Shown in pieces: positions 30,330 through 35,082 of a stretch of 42,201 nucleotides of DNA (position 1 is its first letter; every line of letters starts with the position of its first letter). Both the position numbers and the translations under genes were made by a program. The notes beneath the pieces were generated by a model. That model did not search any database, was not told the DNA's origin, and was given only the letters and a program-made list of their open reading frames with translations. This DNA comes from Deltaproteobacteria bacterium (GTDB lineage: Bacteria; Myxococcota; Myxococcia; Myxococcales; SZAS-1): the NCBI GenBank assembly GCA_018266075.1, contig JAFEBB010000063.1, positions 1 through 42,201 of the forward strand, in the 5' to 3' direction.

Positions 30330-30908
30330 CTACTGATTCGTCGCCGTCACGGAGCTCAGCGACACCATCGCATCTCTCCGCGTGCCGCTCGCCACGAAGT
30401 CCTGAATCGCGCGCGCGAGCGTGGCGCTGAGCACGCCGAGCAGCGGCAAGTGCGCGCCGCCTTCGCAGGTGGGCTGGCCGGGCTTGTCCTCGGCGTCGGG
30501 CGTGAAGCGCTCGTCCCAGCGCACCAGGCCGAACGTGCCAGCGCCGTCGATGCCCGCGTGAATCAGCGGAATCGAATTCGCGCGGGCGTGATCGCTGAGC
30601 AGCTTGCGGCTGGCGGCGTTGTCGAAGCAGTCCACGAGCAGGCCTGCGCCCGCGGCGAGCTGGCCCACGTTCTCGGCCGTGAGCCGCACGCCGAAGGCCT
30701 CGGCCTTCACGCCGTGGAGGTTCAAGAGCTGCAGCTTGAGCGCCTCGGCCTTGTTCTTGCCGAGCGAGGGCTTCACGTAGGCCTGGGCGAGCAGGTTCTT
30801 GCTCTCCACGCGATCGAAGTCGACGAAGGCGAGCGTGGCCTCGAGGTTGCGGCAGAGCATCACCGCGTGCGAGCCGATGGCGCCCACGCCGCAGAAGAGG
30901 ATGCGCAT
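30330..30908 (-). CDS. ThiF/E1-like adenylating enzyme of a ubiquitin-like pathway
   Basis: A 192-residue Rossmann-fold protein of the E1/ThiF/MoeB superfamily, short for the family. Visible: nucleotide loop G7-V-G-A-I-G12, acidic pair D30/D32, Lys51/Lys53 in the LGKNKAE segment, and D93-C-F-D-N-AASR, the usual magnesium-ATP region. Family enzymes adenylate the C-terminus of a ubiquitin-like protein. The Arg normally found in the NLxRQ motif is replaced: here N38-L-L-A-Q42. Cys148 in PTCEGG is the best candidate for a thiolating cysteine. It is the last gene of the operon, 67 bases after the Ubl gene, and the Ubl is its probable substrate. Confidence 0.85.
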   Translation of the reverse strand: MRILFCGVGAIGSHAVMLCRNLEATLAFVDFDRVESKNLLAQAYVKPSLGKNKAEALKLQLLNLHGVKAEAFGVRLTAENVGQLAAGAGLLVDCFDNAASRKLLSDHARANSIPLIHAGIDGAGTFGLVRWDERFTPDAEDKPGQPTCEGGAHLPLLGVLSATLARAIQDFVASGTRRDAMVSLSSVTATNQ

Positions 30909-30974
30909 CGGACTCGACCTCGCGGTTACTTGGAGCTCAAACGAAAGCGGGGACCGGACGGAGCTGGCCCCCGG

Positions 30975-31220
30975 TCAGGCGCCGAAGGGCACCTTGGGGC
31001 GCAGGTAGATGCGGTCCGCGCCCTGGGGCGAGACGAAGCGGTCGACCACGAAGTGATCGAACGCGTTCTCGGCCAGGTTCGCGAGGTGCAGCCCGGGGAC
31101 GCCACCCGAGCGCACGACCTCCACCGCGATGCGGCGGATGTCGTGGTCGGTGACGCGCGTCTCGAGCTCCATGGGCACATCGGCCGACATGCCGTTGTAG
31201 GTGATGTTCAGGGTCGCCAT
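30975..31220 (-). CDS. Small beta-grasp ubiquitin-like protein
   Basis: An 81-residue protein whose predicted strand order fits the beta-grasp fold. An N-terminal hairpin (LNITYNGMSADVPMEL) is followed by a helix (DHDIRRIAVEVVR), a middle segment and a last strand (RIYLRPKVPFG). It ends in Gly-Ala, not Gly-Gly, so a trimming step or a variant C-terminus is implied. It lies between JAB peptidase and E1-like genes on the same strand, the arrangement expected of a conjugated or sulfur-carrier Ubl. It shares no close sequence with the ThiS-like protein at 2740. The Ubl call rests on fold pattern and context. Confidence 0.72.
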   Translation of the reverse strand: MATLNITYNGMSADVPMELETRVTDHDIRRIAVEVVRSGGVPGLHLANLAENAFDHFVVDRFVSPQGADRIYLRPKVPFGA

Positions 31221-31260
31221 TCGTCACCTCCAGTGAAGACGCGTAGACGCGCGCCCGAGC

Positions 31261-31611
31261 TCACTCTGACTTCATCCCCGACGCGCTCCGCAACAACGCC
31301 GCCCACCACGGCTCATTGTGCACAACCGCGTCGCCGCCCGCGATGCGCCGAATCATCTCACCCGGTGCCACGACCGAGAACCAGAGCTCGCGTCCCAGCG
31401 CCTGCCGCAGTGCGGCCATCGTGGACTCGTCCTCGGCGGAGAACGCGTTGGGCCCAACCGGGTGGCTGTGCGCGATCTCGACCAGCGCCGCACGCCGGGA
31501 CCAGATCGCCTCCCAGCGCGCCCGCGAGTCGGGCAGGGCGATGGGCGACACCGACGCGTCGCTCCAGAGCACCGCGTCGTTCTCGCCGATGAGGAAGCAG
31601 ACCTCTCGCAT
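31261..31611 (-). CDS. JAB/MPN (JAMM) metallopeptidase
   Basis: A 116-residue JAMM-type zinc peptidase. The metal-binding motif is intact: H48-S-H50-P, seven residues, S58-x-x-D61. A glutamate in the first half (Glu34 region or Glu10) is the probable catalytic acid. JAMM enzymes cut isopeptide bonds or process ubiquitin-like precursors at the glycine. The gene begins four bases after the stop of the 317-residue gene and sits 41 bases before the Ubl gene. Expected jobs are trimming the Ubl C-terminal Ala, or removing the Ubl from targets. Confidence 0.88.
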   Translation of the reverse strand: MREVCFLIGENDAVLWSDASVSPIALPDSRARWEAIWSRRAALVEIAHSHPVGPNAFSAEDESTMAALRQALGRELWFSVVAPGEMIRRIAGGDAVVHNEPWWAALLRSASGMKSE

Positions 31612-31614
31612 GCG

Positions 31615-32568
31615 TCAGTCCCAGTGCCGGGTGATCACCAGCCGGCCGTGCTCGATCGCCTCGCGAATCACGCTGGGCAGGCTCTCCAACGTGACCATCG
31701 AGTCCGCGCCGGCGAGGCACACGCCCGAGTCGACGACCTGCAGGCTCTCGTCGTGGACGATGGAGATGAAGGTCTCGCCCATGAAGTCCCAGGTGACCTC
31801 GACCTGGTGGCCGCTGAGCTGTCGCGTGCGTCGCATGCGCGCGCCCGCATCCTGCAGCGCGGCCTCGGCGCGCTCATCGAACGACGCGAACCGCCGCGGT
31901 CGGCGAAAGATCTCCGGCACGCGCACGTTGGGGCCGGCCGTCGGCATCGGCCGCGCCGCGAGCATCGCCTGGTACGCGCGTCGCTCGGCGTCGAGACGTC
32001 GCAGCACGCGCTCGGCTTCGGGCACGCCGCCGTCCGCGATGGCGCCCACGTGCGGCTGCAGCTCGAGCGGGTGCGCAGGGAGCTGCAGCGTCCGTCCAAC
32101 TTGGTCCGCGAGCGCGTACGCGAAGGCGCTCCGCAGCGGCGCCGGAACACCCTTGAGCTCCGCGAGCGTGCGCCCATCTTCGAGCGCACGCCGCACGTCT
32201 TCCTCGATGCCGCTCTCGAACTCGAGCCCATCGAAGATCAGCGCGCCGCCGTGCCAGCGACGCGCACTCGCGGGCGCAAAACGCGACGGTTGCTCTTCGG
32301 GCATCAGGTTCACGCGCTCGGCGCTCCCGCGATCGCCCACGAGCCGCGGCCCGAGCAGAAATCCACGCACGCGCGGGAGCTGCGAAAGGTCTGGCGCGTC
32401 GGTCGGATCCTTCGGCGTCGCGCGCCGGCCGCTCACGGAGAAACGCCACCAGCCCGGCGTGAGCTCGGCGTCGAGCCGCAAGCTGCGATCGGGCGCGTCG
32501 ACGCGCAGGCCGCCCAGATACGGCAGCACCAGCTCCTGCGCGGCGCCGAGGTGCTTGCGAAAATCCAC
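31615..32568 (-). CDS. Unrecognised 317-residue component of the Ro/Ubl operon
   Basis: No family is recognised. The protein has a beta-rich first half (WWRFSVSGRRATP, VRGFLLGPRLV, GGALIFDGLEFESGIEEDVRRAL), a helical middle and a C-terminal beta/alpha region. It has exactly one cysteine, Cys284, in DSGVCLAGADSMVTLESLP. The GVCL-then-TLESLPSVI order is reminiscent of the E2 active-site stretch (G-x-I/V-C-L followed by a TL helix), but the spacing is shorter. No HPN motif is present. It lies seven bases after the TROVE stop and four before the JAB start. An E2-like or adaptor function is an inference from position and that single motif. Confidence 0.65.
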   Translation of the reverse strand: MDFRKHLGAAQELVLPYLGGLRVDAPDRSLRLDAELTPGWWRFSVSGRRATPKDPTDAPDLSQLPRVRGFLLGPRLVGDRGSAERVNLMPEEQPSRFAPASARRWHGGALIFDGLEFESGIEEDVRRALEDGRTLAELKGVPAPLRSAFAYALADQVGRTLQLPAHPLELQPHVGAIADGGVPEAERVLRRLDAERRAYQAMLAARPMPTAGPNVRVPEIFRRPRRFASFDERAEAALQDAGARMRRTRQLSGHQVEVTWDFMGETFISIVHDESLQVVDSGVCLAGADSMVTLESLPSVIREAIEHGRLVITRHWD

Positions 32569-32574
32569 GGCGAC

Positions 32575-34350
32575 TCAGCCGACCTTGAGCAGCGGCGTCT
32601 TCATCACGCGCTCCACCCAGCCCGACTGCGGCGCGCCCACGCCCGCGGCGATGGGCGCCTCGAGCAGCGTCGCGAGCACGCGCGGCACCTGGTACGGGTC
32701 GTCGAAGGTGTTGACCTGCACCTCGCTGAACGGCACGCGGAGCGTCCGCGCGCAGATGCGCACCGTGCTCCCGCGGCCGTTCGACACGCTCACCAACAGC
32801 GCCATCGCCGCCGGCGAATAGCCGAGCTGCGTGAACGCGCGCGCGAGCTGCTCGCCCGACTCGCCGGCCTCGTCGCCCACGACGATCACGATGAGCTTGG
32901 CCTCAGCGGGAATGCGCACGCCCGCATTGTGGAAGGCCTGGAGCGCCGCCGCGTGCACGGTGCCTCCCGCGGCCTTGATGGAGGCGAGCATGTGCGCCAC
33001 GGCCGCGCGGTTGGCGGCCTTGGGCACGAGCACGGTGCCCATGGTGTCGAAGCTGGCGATGTGCACGCGCTCCGCGGGGAAGCCGGCGAGGATCTTGGTC
33101 AGCGCCTCCTTCGACTGCTCGATCGCGCCCTCCATCGAGCCCGACTTGTCGATGAGGAACATCACGCGCACCTCGGCCTCCTTGGTGGCCTCCTTCACGG
33201 CGGCGCGCGCGGCGTTGTCGCTGGCCTCCTCGAGCTTCTCCTTCAGCTCCTTGGAGCGGACGTTCTTCGCGATGTGTAGACCGCGCTGATCCGTCGAGCT
33301 GGCGATCGACTTCTCCCAGCGGGCGCGCACGTCCGGATCGGCCATGAGGCCGAGCTCCTCGAGCGTGGGCGTGAGCATGCGCAGGTCGCGATCGCTCAGC
33401 GACGGCAGCAGCGCCACGAGAATGGCCGGCGTGAGCCCGAGCTCCTTGGGCAGACGGCCGACGGCGTCCTTGTAGCTCAGCCGCTGCTCGACGATCGCCT
33501 CACAGATCTCGGCCTCACTCAGCCCGTCGAAGCGATCGCGCTTCTCGAGCTTGAGCGCCGTCAGTCCGACGGTGCGGTGACCGCCTGCCGACTGCTTCTG
33601 CTTCCAGCCGAGGATGGCGAAGAACTTGTCGCTCTCGGGCTTGTAGCCGGCCTTGCGCGCGATCTTCTTGATCGTCTCCTTGAAGCCCGCCTTCACCAGG
33701 CCCTCGAGCATGGCCGGGTTCTTCTCGCGGAGCTGGAGCCACTTGGTGGCCGCGCGCTTCCAGCGGCCGAGCGGCGCCTTGCGCGACGCGGGATCGCCGA
33801 AGCCCGCCCGCTTGTTCATGGCGGCGATGTCGCTGGTCTCGAGCAGCTCGGCCACGCGCAGCACGGCCTTGGGCGTGAGCATGCGCGTCGACTTGCGCTC
33901 GTAGTGGAGCAGCATCGCCTCCCCAATGGCCCGATAGTCGTCGTCGTAGAACGCGACCTCACCGCCGTCCTTCACCGGCTGGCCCGAGCGCTGCTGCACG
34001 AGCATGAGCGCGGCGCAGGCGACCTTGAGGTCGCGCCAGTCGGTCTGGGTGAGCGCGTAGCTCGCGAAGTGGGCGAAGAGCGTGGCGTTGAGCGCGTAGA
34101 TCTCGAGCAGCCGCGCGTAGAGCTGCGTCGCCGCAGGCACGAACAGTCCCGGACGACACGCGCGCGCGCCGCGCGGGAGCTGCGCCGCGCCGCCCGAGCG
34201 CCCGCGAACTTGCGGGTGCCAGACGCCGTTCAGGTCGTAGCCGGGCCGGTTGTGCCAGAGGTGCGCCGAGCTGCTGAGCACCAGGTCGAGCAGCTTCTCG
34301 GCGGGGCCCATCTGGGCCTCGGGGAGCGGGGCGTTCGTGCGCGTGGTCAT
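32575..34350 (-). CDS. rsr: Ro60/TROVE-domain protein with C-terminal vWA domain
   Basis: A 591-residue Ro protein. The TROVE domain (about residues 15-380) consists of helical HEAT-like repeats, with segments such as FAHFASYALTQTDWRDLKVACAAL split by basic helices. The vWA domain (about 395-570) has the MIDAS set D401-K-S403-G-S405-M, Thr in FDTMG and Asp in VVGDEAGES. In other bacteria Ro (Rsr) binds Y RNAs and works with exonucleases or ligases in RNA quality control. It has a GGAGGG RBS, starts 45 bases after the Y RNA terminator and heads the operon with the 317-residue protein, JAB, Ubl and E1 genes. No RtcB or PNPase gene is adjacent. Confidence 0.93.
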   Translation of the reverse strand: MTTRTNAPLPEAQMGPAEKLLDLVLSSSAHLWHNRPGYDLNGVWHPQVRGRSGGAAQLPRGARACRPGLFVPAATQLYARLLEIYALNATLFAHFASYALTQTDWRDLKVACAALMLVQQRSGQPVKDGGEVAFYDDDYRAIGEAMLLHYERKSTRMLTPKAVLRVAELLETSDIAAMNKRAGFGDPASRKAPLGRWKRAATKWLQLREKNPAMLEGLVKAGFKETIKKIARKAGYKPESDKFFAILGWKQKQSAGGHRTVGLTALKLEKRDRFDGLSEAEICEAIVEQRLSYKDAVGRLPKELGLTPAILVALLPSLSDRDLRMLTPTLEELGLMADPDVRARWEKSIASSTDQRGLHIAKNVRSKELKEKLEEASDNAARAAVKEATKEAEVRVMFLIDKSGSMEGAIEQSKEALTKILAGFPAERVHIASFDTMGTVLVPKAANRAAVAHMLASIKAAGGTVHAAALQAFHNAGVRIPAEAKLIVIVVGDEAGESGEQLARAFTQLGYSPAAMALLVSVSNGRGSTVRICARTLRVPFSEVQVNTFDDPYQVPRVLATLLEAPIAAGVGAPQSGWVERVMKTPLLKVG

Positions 34351-34394
34351 GCGTTCCCTCCGCAGGGTGGGAAGTATCGGAGGTCGGACGGCAG

Positions 34395-34433
34395 AAAAAA
34401 AGGGCGCGCTCGACCCGGTCAGGGGAGCACGCC
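34395..34433 (-). terminator. Intrinsic terminator of the Y RNA array
   Basis: On the minus strand GGCGTGCTC pairs with GAGCGCGCC (nine pairs, one G-U). An inner CCC/GGG pair encloses TGACC, and seven Ts follow. It ends transcription between the last Y RNA and the Ro gene, which supports a separate short-RNA unit. Confidence 0.88.
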
Positions 34434-34444
34434 GCCAAAAACAT

Positions 34445-34596
34445 CGCGCCCGAGTGGCGAAGCCGCGAATTGCACGATCCGTAGTCGTGTGCCGGATCCA
34501 ACCGGCGGTTCGTCTCCACAGCGAGCGGAGACGGAGGGATTCGAACCCCCAAGCCCTTGCGGGCCGTGGCTTGTATGGCCTTACCGGCCGGACGCG
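34445..34596 (-). ncRNA. Y RNA-like RNA, copy 4, with near-complete permuted tRNA module
   Basis: 152 nt. The basal stem CGCGTCCG/CGGGCGCG pairs fully (one G-U). A GGCC hairpin and the inner stem AAGCC/GGCTT follow. The tRNA-like core comes in permuted order. It opens with a variable-arm hairpin GCCC-GCAA-GGGC and a T arm with loop TTCGAAT in GGGGTTCGAATCCC. Acceptor strands CGTCTCC and GGAGACG then pair across a nine-base loop. The D-like arm GCCGG/CCGGC and an anticodon-like arm CACGA-CTACGGA-TCGTG complete it. That loop resembles tRNA-Arg(ACG). This is the most tRNA-like copy. It would present T-arm modification sites to tRNA enzymes and bind Ro through the basal stem, by analogy with YrlA. 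Confidence 0.8.
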
Positions 34597-34629
34597 AAAA
34601 TCGAAACGATTTGGTTAAGCGAAATGAGC

Positions 34630-34766
34630 TACGCCCGAGTGTGGAAGCCGTACTTTTTTAGCGTCTGCTCTCCCGTTGAGCTACGCGCCCCTGGATGGAC
34701 GCGGGCGGAGTCGAACCGCCGACAGGACGTTGAGTTGGGCTTGTTTGGCCTCCAAGGCCGGACGCA
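34630..34766 (-). ncRNA. Y RNA-like RNA, copy 3
   Basis: 137 nt. The basal stem TGCGTCCG/CGGGCGTA pairs throughout with G-U wobbles. Next come the GGCC-TTGGA-GGCC hairpin and the inner stem AAGCC/GGCTT. The permuted tRNA-like core has T arm GGCGG-TTCGACT-CCGCC, acceptor strands CGCGTCC and GGGCGCG (seven pairs, one G-U) closed by ATCCAG, and D arm GCTC-AACGGGA-GAGC. A short CGTC/GACG stem stands in for the anticodon stem. The 3' stem is preceded by CCACACT, as in copy 2. Confidence 0.82.
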
Positions 34767-34800
34767 GAAGTTTGAAAGGGTTTGGTTACACGAATGAGGG

Positions 34801-34936
34801 TGCGCCCGAGTGTGGAAGCCGTTCTTTTAAGCACGCGCTCTGCCGCTGAGCTACACGCCGGTGAGTCGGCGTGGACGGAGTCGAACCGCCTTCCTCGTGC
34901 TCCCGTTGGCTTGTTTGGCCTCCAAGGCCGGACGCA
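34801..34936 (-). ncRNA. Y RNA-like RNA, copy 2
   Basis: 136 nt. The basal stem TGCGTCCG/CGGGCGCA pairs throughout. The GGCC-TTGGA-GGCC hairpin and inner stem AAGCC/GGCTT match copy 3. The permuted core has T arm GGCGG-TTCGACT-CCGTC and acceptor strands CACGCCG and CGGCGTG, seven perfect pairs closed by ACTCAC. D arm GCTC-AGCGGCA-GAGC follows, and AGCACG pairs with CGTGCT as the anticodon-stem equivalent. The 5' half of one module does not pair with the T half of the following copy, which confirms the permuted reading. Confidence 0.85.
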
Positions 34937-34965
34937 AAATTGAAAACGTTTGGTTAAGAAAAGAA

Positions 34966-35082
34966 GGTGCCCGAGTGGTGAGGCCGCTCTTGTGGTTCCC
35001 CGAACCCGGGGAGACGGAGGGAATCGAACCCTGAGCCTTGCGGCCCTGCCAAGTGCGTGTAGGACCTCTCCTGCCGGACACC
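34966..35082 (-). ncRNA. Y RNA-like RNA, copy 1, shortened D side
   Basis: 117 nt. The basal stem GGTGTCCG/CGGGCACC is complementary at all eight positions but differs in sequence from the other copies, so the pairing is conserved by covariation. An AGGA/TCCT hairpin and an inner stem GGCCGC/GCGGCC follow. The T arm AGGG-TTCGATT-CCCT is tRNA-like. The following stem TCCCCG/CGGGGA closes over GGTT, and the D arm is missing. It is the first transcribed copy. Confidence 0.75.

Follow-up and report, generated by a model that had tools for sequence, protein, structure and literature searches.

Ro60 is a major human autoantigen, the Ro ribonucleoprotein (RNP) is poorly understood, and the Y RNAs of bacteria provide the simplest model for its study. 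RYPER consists of the bacterial Ro60 protein Rsr, a Y RNA and PNPase. In RYPER of Deinococcus radiodurans, as in the rsr-yrlBA-rtcBA locus of Salmonella, a Ro60-fold ring with a von Willebrand factor A (vWA) domain is encoded next to its Y RNAs, whose long Y stem ends in a tRNA-like effector module. We analyzed a locus with the same features in contig JAFEBB010000063.1 (assembly GCA_018266075.1, a deltaproteobacterium of the Myxococcales), whose 42,201 nucleotides are hereafter called the window. However, the Ro-like protein of the window is invisible to the Pfam TROVE model and is always accompanied by genes for a ubiquitin-like protein (Ubl), an E1-like enzyme of the ThiF family, a JAB/JAMM peptidase (JAB) and a 317-residue protein (B317); this five-gene unit lacks rtcBA, and its Y RNA arrays are longer. 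Sequence comparison indicates that Ro, Y RNAs and the Ubl pathway are inherited as one unit across several bacterial phyla, which hints at protein-tag or sulfur-carrier chemistry acting on the Ro RNA machine.

Bil and PRTRC cassettes likewise group genes for a Ubl-like protein, an E1-like enzyme and a JAB, and they too have a conserved fourth protein. In contrast, the Ubl and fourth protein of the window have no detectable homology to PRTRC or Pfam families, and their cassette is coupled to Ro and Y RNAs, chromosomal and, in Myxococcaceae, vertically inherited. PRTRC membership was rejected: the only match of ThiF (TIGR03736) lay below the cut-off (24.5 vs 144.75 bits), no similarity to PRTRC B or C was detected, and hhalign to PRTRC B gave 0.5%. 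No description of Ro with a Ubl cassette was present in the literature searched, a search that left key papers outside and priority unproven. To our knowledge, neither the obligate combination nor the divergent Ro family nor Y RNAs of two topologies have been described; the kinds of component are known.

The minus strand carries all five genes, ordered Ro-like, B317, JAB, small Ubl-like protein and ThiF, with intergenic gaps of 6, 3, 40 and 66 nt, and four Y RNAs are located upstream of the Ro-like gene on the same strand. A preliminary description made from the sequence alone had given this order (TROVE-vWA, 317-residue protein, JAMM, beta-grasp protein, ThiF) correctly, and its gaps of 7, 4, 41 and 67 bases are each 1 too long. 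It had also proposed four related RNAs with a terminator. All four score with the covariance model described below, but a pattern search of the Y RNA strand revealed no terminator; a T run is present near 34394-34400. Pfam matches among the five proteins were limited to ThiF, Prok-JAB (Table 1) and VWA (4e-11), and the small protein and B317 had no matches in Pfam, NCBIfam or PADLOC.

The distribution of the genes was determined at three levels. Among 145 genomes of the order, Ro, ThiF and Ubl occurred in an identical set of 75; two further vWA-only matches in the Ro search were dismissed as noise. Ro and Ubl also shared an identical set of 75 genomes in a phylum sample of 174, each at least 85% complete. 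JAB was present in 74 of these 75, and no genome carried Ro without Ubl or Ubl without Ro. One family dominates both counts, and the occurrences are not independent events. As independent support, 75 Ro loci were detected across 84,980 species genomes, 58 of them with enough sequence downstream to tally the partner genes: 16 had all four within 4 kb, 36 had B317-JAB, 2 had B317-Ubl-ThiF and 2 had Ubl-ThiF. The full operon was found in Polyangia, Kofleriaceae, Nannocystaceae and two cultured Virgisporangium species (Actinomycetota), and also in metagenome-assembled genomes (MAGs) labelled Planctomycetota, Terriglobia (Acidobacteriota) and Schekmanbacteria, although such labels are possibly erroneous. 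Myxococcaceae never lose the Ubl-ThiF pair, but it has moved away from Ro-B317-JAB there, often to a site 4-24 kb downstream or onto a different contig. The system is single-copy and near-universal in whole genera, with a vertical-looking identity of 70-77%. The arrangement exceeds chance, because it recurs in dozens of genomes. The link between Ro, Y RNAs and the Ubl, E1 and JAB genes, which the preliminary description had named as the point on which its reading could fail, is strongly upheld: the phyletic sets are identical, gene order is kept across several lineages, and searches of neighbourhoods and with a Y RNA covariance model showed the same small genes and Y RNAs recurring beside Ro homologues. 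A Myxococcaceae-like Ro locus (71% identity, same Y RNAs) was also present in a record named Comamonas sp. KCTC 72670 (L141), probably a misnamed or contaminated assembly.

Pfam TROVE (PF05731) matched neither the 591-residue protein nor anything else in its own genome, and gave only two matches, marginal and partial, across the 145 genomes of the order, where canonical TROVE genes are essentially absent. We compared folds, using an AlphaFold model (A7; pLDDT 82, pTM 0.54) generated from 27 diverse relatives. The best Foldseek matches were TROVE/Ro60 structures (E 1e-9 to 5e-7), including a TROVE-domain crystal structure (9kop, E 1.3e-9), Xenopus Ro60 with RNA (1yvp, E 4.7e-8) and Thermus phage Ro60 (9l5y); all three alignments spanned ~550 columns, with 12-15% identity. 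VIA aligned the model with D. radiodurans Rsr (2nvo) at Z 13.8 over 422 residues (rmsd 4.9). Ro entries in general reached Z 13-14 over 414-454 residues; vWA-only entries tied in Z, but both halves of the model were aligned by Ro entries only. The metal-ion-dependent adhesion site (MIDAS) is complete, with D401, S403, S405, T464 and D493 invariant in 27/27 Ro-like sequences. Given the full-length fold matches and the invariant MIDAS, the 591-residue protein is, as modelled, a divergent Ro60-fold protein with a helical TROVE-like ring and a vWA domain. The TROVE-vWA assignment made earlier thus stands as to the Ro60/Rsr fold over the full length and the Pfam VWA domain, but not as to a Pfam TROVE match. 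The genomes G081 and G084 each carry two full Ro paralogues; one adjoins B317-JAB, and Ubl-ThiF or Ubl lies near the second.

The Y RNAs were compared with YrlA (RF02553), which shows the same order of Y stem, T arm, acceptor-like hairpin and D arm, that is, a permuted tRNA. A motif scan identified ~60 distinct RNAs with a common Y stem, almost all of which lie on the Ro strand, upstream of the gene; because the motif itself dictates the outer ends, their conservation is not evidence. The Y stem (7 bp plus 9 bp) closes a circularly permuted tRNA. The inner helices, unselected by the motif, comprise a T stem of 5 bp with a TTCRANT loop of 7 nt, a 7-bp hairpin at the acceptor-stem position, a UA linker and a D arm; the D arm is mostly followed by an anticodon-like arm (5 bp, 7-nt loop; 20/29 sequences), and the arm order is again that of a circularly permuted tRNA. 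Over the whole structure, 29 sequences showed two-sided changes at 16 pairs, with 98.5% paired cells compared with 87.5% in shuffles. The covariation score was 0.32 compared with 0.12 in shuffles, 0/500 shuffles scored as high, and slid controls were far lower. Covariation thus backs the permuted T, acceptor and D arms, and with them the earlier proposal that these Y RNAs mimic tRNA.

R1, a covariance model trained on these 29 Myxococcota RNAs, also detected Y RNAs next to Ro at many other loci, among them MAG loci (L123, L129, L131) and actinobacterial loci (L134, L140). At E ≤ 1e-5, R1 matched 74 of the 75 Ro-positive genomes of the order and none of the 70 Ro-negative ones; the sole Ro-positive genome without a match is 85% complete. 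The Rfam YrlA model recognised two of the four window RNAs, at 37.4 and 34.5 bits vs a gathering cut-off of 69. Because these scores lie below the cut-off, the window RNAs appear best described as YrlA-like rather than as members of RF02553. They also differ from it in their Y stem (GCGYCCGGCC...ACTCGGGCGC), and most relatives add an anticodon arm, while some hold an unpermuted tRNA. A review of YrlA lists D, T and acceptor arms only (PMC8394870).

The ThiF/E1-like enzyme and JAMM peptidase recognised in the preliminary description have intact active-site residues. GxGxxG, D30, D32, R33, N38, Q42, K53, D96 and C148 of ThiF are invariant in 17/17 sequences, Cys148 sits in the crossover loop, and the ThiF profile matched MoeB (1jw9) at E 1e-13. 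In JAB, E3, H48, H50, S58 and D61 (E, HxH, SxxD) are invariant where aligned. The small protein ends in RPK[VT]PFG, invariant in all members, followed by an unconserved tail of 0-16 residues, the pattern of a precursor that would be processed to a C-terminal Gly. The beta-grasp fold named in the preliminary description is putative. In L127 and L144, which lack JAB according to a genome-wide search, this tail is absent. For a further JAB-less genome, G146, absence of the tail was predicted before the sequence was read, and ...VRPKTPFG-stop was found. The tail was absent in 3/3 genomes without JAB but in 2/35 with JAB (Fisher p 0.0012, relatedness not corrected). As the Ubl tail is lost where JAB is lost, the conserved role of JAB is probably maturation of the predicted Ubl. 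ThiF relatives ~30-33% identical to the window E1 were also observed on cyanobacterial plasmids (L146, L148), outside a Ro context where annotated, and possibly represent another uncharacterised cassette.

In the AlphaFold model of B317 (mean pLDDT 87), the N-terminal part consists of beta domains that look like tandem OB folds, the middle is helical, and the C-terminal domain has the order alpha-beta-beta-beta-beta-Cys-alpha. In VIA, residues 10-118 weakly matched the Mpa interdomain (OB region; Z 7.8). Cys284 is invariant in 19/19 members; D280, G282 and L285 are invariant too, and the secondary-structure order together with the GxCL motif recalls an E2. B317 may be a transfer enzyme acting via Cys284, a role that the preliminary description overlooked; from sequence and predicted structure, we judge an E2-like function to be evenly poised between right and wrong. 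A weak PP-loop (Asn_synthase) match in 2/19 members was judged to be chance, and the model has no such domain. A phylum scan with Prok-E2_D gave no match anywhere, controls included, and was uninformative.

These observations could reflect one system, in which a Ro60-like ring protein and dedicated Y RNAs are joined to a minimal Ubl pathway that tags the RNP or its client; we give this proposal an equal chance of being right or wrong. The Y RNA stem would dock on Ro, and the tRNA-shaped module would bring in a tRNA-binding client. JAB would trim the small protein to its C-terminal Gly (...RPKxPFG), and the ThiF-like E1 would adenylate the Ubl and then take it on Cys148. The Ubl would then be passed, probably via Cys284 of B317, onto Ro or an RNP-bound client, and tagging would alter how the RNA machine assembles or acts. 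The specific form of this proposal, that the Ro60 RNP with its tRNA-decoy Y RNAs serves as substrate or platform for a dedicated Ubl conjugation pathway (Ubl, E1, JAMM maturase and a new E2-like protein), is put forward tentatively, with a little less than even confidence. Several results weigh against the tagging proposal. Neither Pfam and NCBIfam nor a profile search of the PDB recognised B317 as an E2, and hhalign, which included approximate sequences of three eukaryotic E2s, did not do so either. Foldseek and VIA searches with the whole model, which were dominated by the OB region, gave weak OB-type matches only, with E2s absent among the matches listed. No extra domain is present in the E1, and sequence comparison detected no similarity of the small protein to any beta-grasp protein, including ubiquitin, ThiS and MoaD (mean z <1 in a pairwise shuffle test against these three). 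Moreover, removal of Ubl, which the preliminary description had paired with attachment as a control on the Ro RNP, is not essential, because JAB-less lineages retain the rest of the system.

The main rival is sulfur transfer, which we consider rather unlikely: after activation by the ThiF-like enzyme, the small protein would donate sulfur as a thiocarboxylate, as TtuB, Urm1 and ThiS do, to thiolate either the tRNA-like module of the Y RNAs or Ro-held tRNAs, and JAB would only mature the carrier. TtuB/TtuC and other Ubl sulfur carriers likewise combine a small protein ending in Gly with a MoeB/ThiF-like activator in a tRNA-related context. The E1 is closest to MoeB/ThiF, JAB acts like a maturation enzyme that can be lost, and the RNAs keep their T loop and D arm as real tRNA does, the kind of site that TtuA/TtuB thiolate, namely tRNA position 54 (PMC7138817). 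However, the five-gene set contains no rhodanese, cysteine desulfurase or PP-loop thiolase, the E1 sequence lacks the zinc-binding CxxC motifs, and the invariant Cys284 of B317 would be left without a role. The present evidence does not separate sulfur transfer from conjugation.

A role in anti-phage defence or another kind of conflict, along the lines of Bil/CBASS, with Ro and Y RNAs sensing damaged RNA and the Ubl tagging foreign or host targets, is improbable. The four-protein composition of the Ubl cassette, which we take to resemble that of Bil, counts in its favour, tandem tRNA decoys would suit tRNA-cutting effectors, and the E1 matches PADLOC E1-E2 proteins (best E 5e-10). Nevertheless, this similarity is generic to E1s in PADLOC 2023, which may lack Bil models; Ubl, B317 and Ro have no PADLOC match, and the single-copy, vertical-looking and near-universal occurrence of the system in whole genera is unlike that of patchy defence genes. 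Shared transcription only, of co-regulated stress genes with Ro RNP and Ubl pathway biochemically unlinked, has little to recommend it: the separation of Ubl-ThiF from Ro-B317-JAB in Myxococcaceae shows that tight adjacency is unneeded, but even there neither Ro nor Ubl occurs without the other, and order and content recur in distant lineages.

The analysis establishes the gene and RNA content of the locus, its conservation, the Ro fold, the intact active-site residues and the coupling of tail and JAB; the Ubl fold, transfer by B317, conjugation, its target and its effect are inferred. If the tagging proposal is true, protein tagging would be linked directly to RNA surveillance, and the settings of bacterial ubiquitin-like systems would extend past those known to us. 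A strictly co-inherited Ubl pathway would make regulation of the Ro RNP directly testable in Myxococcus xanthus.

The four Y RNAs of the window (Table 1) vary in architecture. In Y RNAs 2 and 3, the Y stem (P1+P2) encloses a permuted tRNA-like module; their R1 scores are not independent, as both belong to the R1 training set. Y RNA 1 has the Y stem and T arm, with a degenerate tRNA-like module lacking a clear D arm. Y RNA 4 has the same Y stem as the other window RNAs and a longer inner module.

Table 1. Coordinates of the Y RNAs and genes of the window, and of Y RNAs containing an unpermuted tRNA at other loci
Feature	Position	Strand	Evidence
Y RNA 1	34967..35081	-	R1 46.7 bits, E 2.7e-5; outside R1 training set
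Y RNA 2	34802..34935	-	R1 102 bits, E 8e-15 (R1 training sequence); Rfam YrlA E 1.9e-6
Y RNA 3	34631..34765	-	R1 E 1.6e-14 (R1 training sequence); Rfam YrlA E 1.4e-5
Y RNA 4	34446..34595	-	R1 82.6 bits, E 1.9e-11; outside R1 training set
Divergent Ro60-like protein (as modelled), 591 aa	32575..34350	-	Foldseek, VIA, MIDAS
317-aa partner protein (B317)	31615..32568	-	AlphaFold model, invariant Cys284
JAB/JAMM peptidase	31261..31611	-	Prok-JAB 4e-7; JAMM residues
Small Ubl-like protein, 81 aa, C terminus RPKVPFG-A	30975..31220	-	C-terminal motif
E1-like ThiF/MoeB adenylyltransferase, 192 aa	30330..30908	-	Pfam ThiF 6e-20; Cys148 conserved
Y RNA with unpermuted tRNA	L117:7067-7194		Ser-cga by ARAGORN; permuted ones in array too
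Y RNA with unpermuted tRNA	L111:6752-6879		Ser-cga by ARAGORN; permuted ones in array too
Y RNA with unpermuted tRNA	L108:2195-2330		Ile-tat by ARAGORN; permuted ones in array too

The Kofleriaceae locus L117 carries an array of six Y RNAs in ~1 kb. In L117, L111 and L108, one RNA each holds a tRNA of normal order inside the Y stem, and those of L117 and L108 are recognised by Rfam too. As one tRNA shape is built in two connectivities, this argues that the tRNA shape itself is under selection, and the family provides a natural experiment on the purpose of tRNA mimicry.

Y RNAs were also observed in other positions and forms. Outside the window and far from its Ro locus, the same genome carries a fifth Y RNA (G000:C21:29719-29855; R1 E 4.5e-14), and many relatives have additional Y RNAs elsewhere in the genome, often as tandem pairs. 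In G146, an array with one clear R1 match (E 2.6e-9) and three weak ones (L171:4123-4945) seemingly lies on the opposite, downstream side of the operon, beyond ThiF. Very short Y RNAs that have the Y stem but lack the permuted tRNA module were found at L131:7830-7914 (85 nt) and L036:6739-6814 (76 nt), the latter consisting of the Y stem and a single hairpin of 5 bp with a 7-nt loop.

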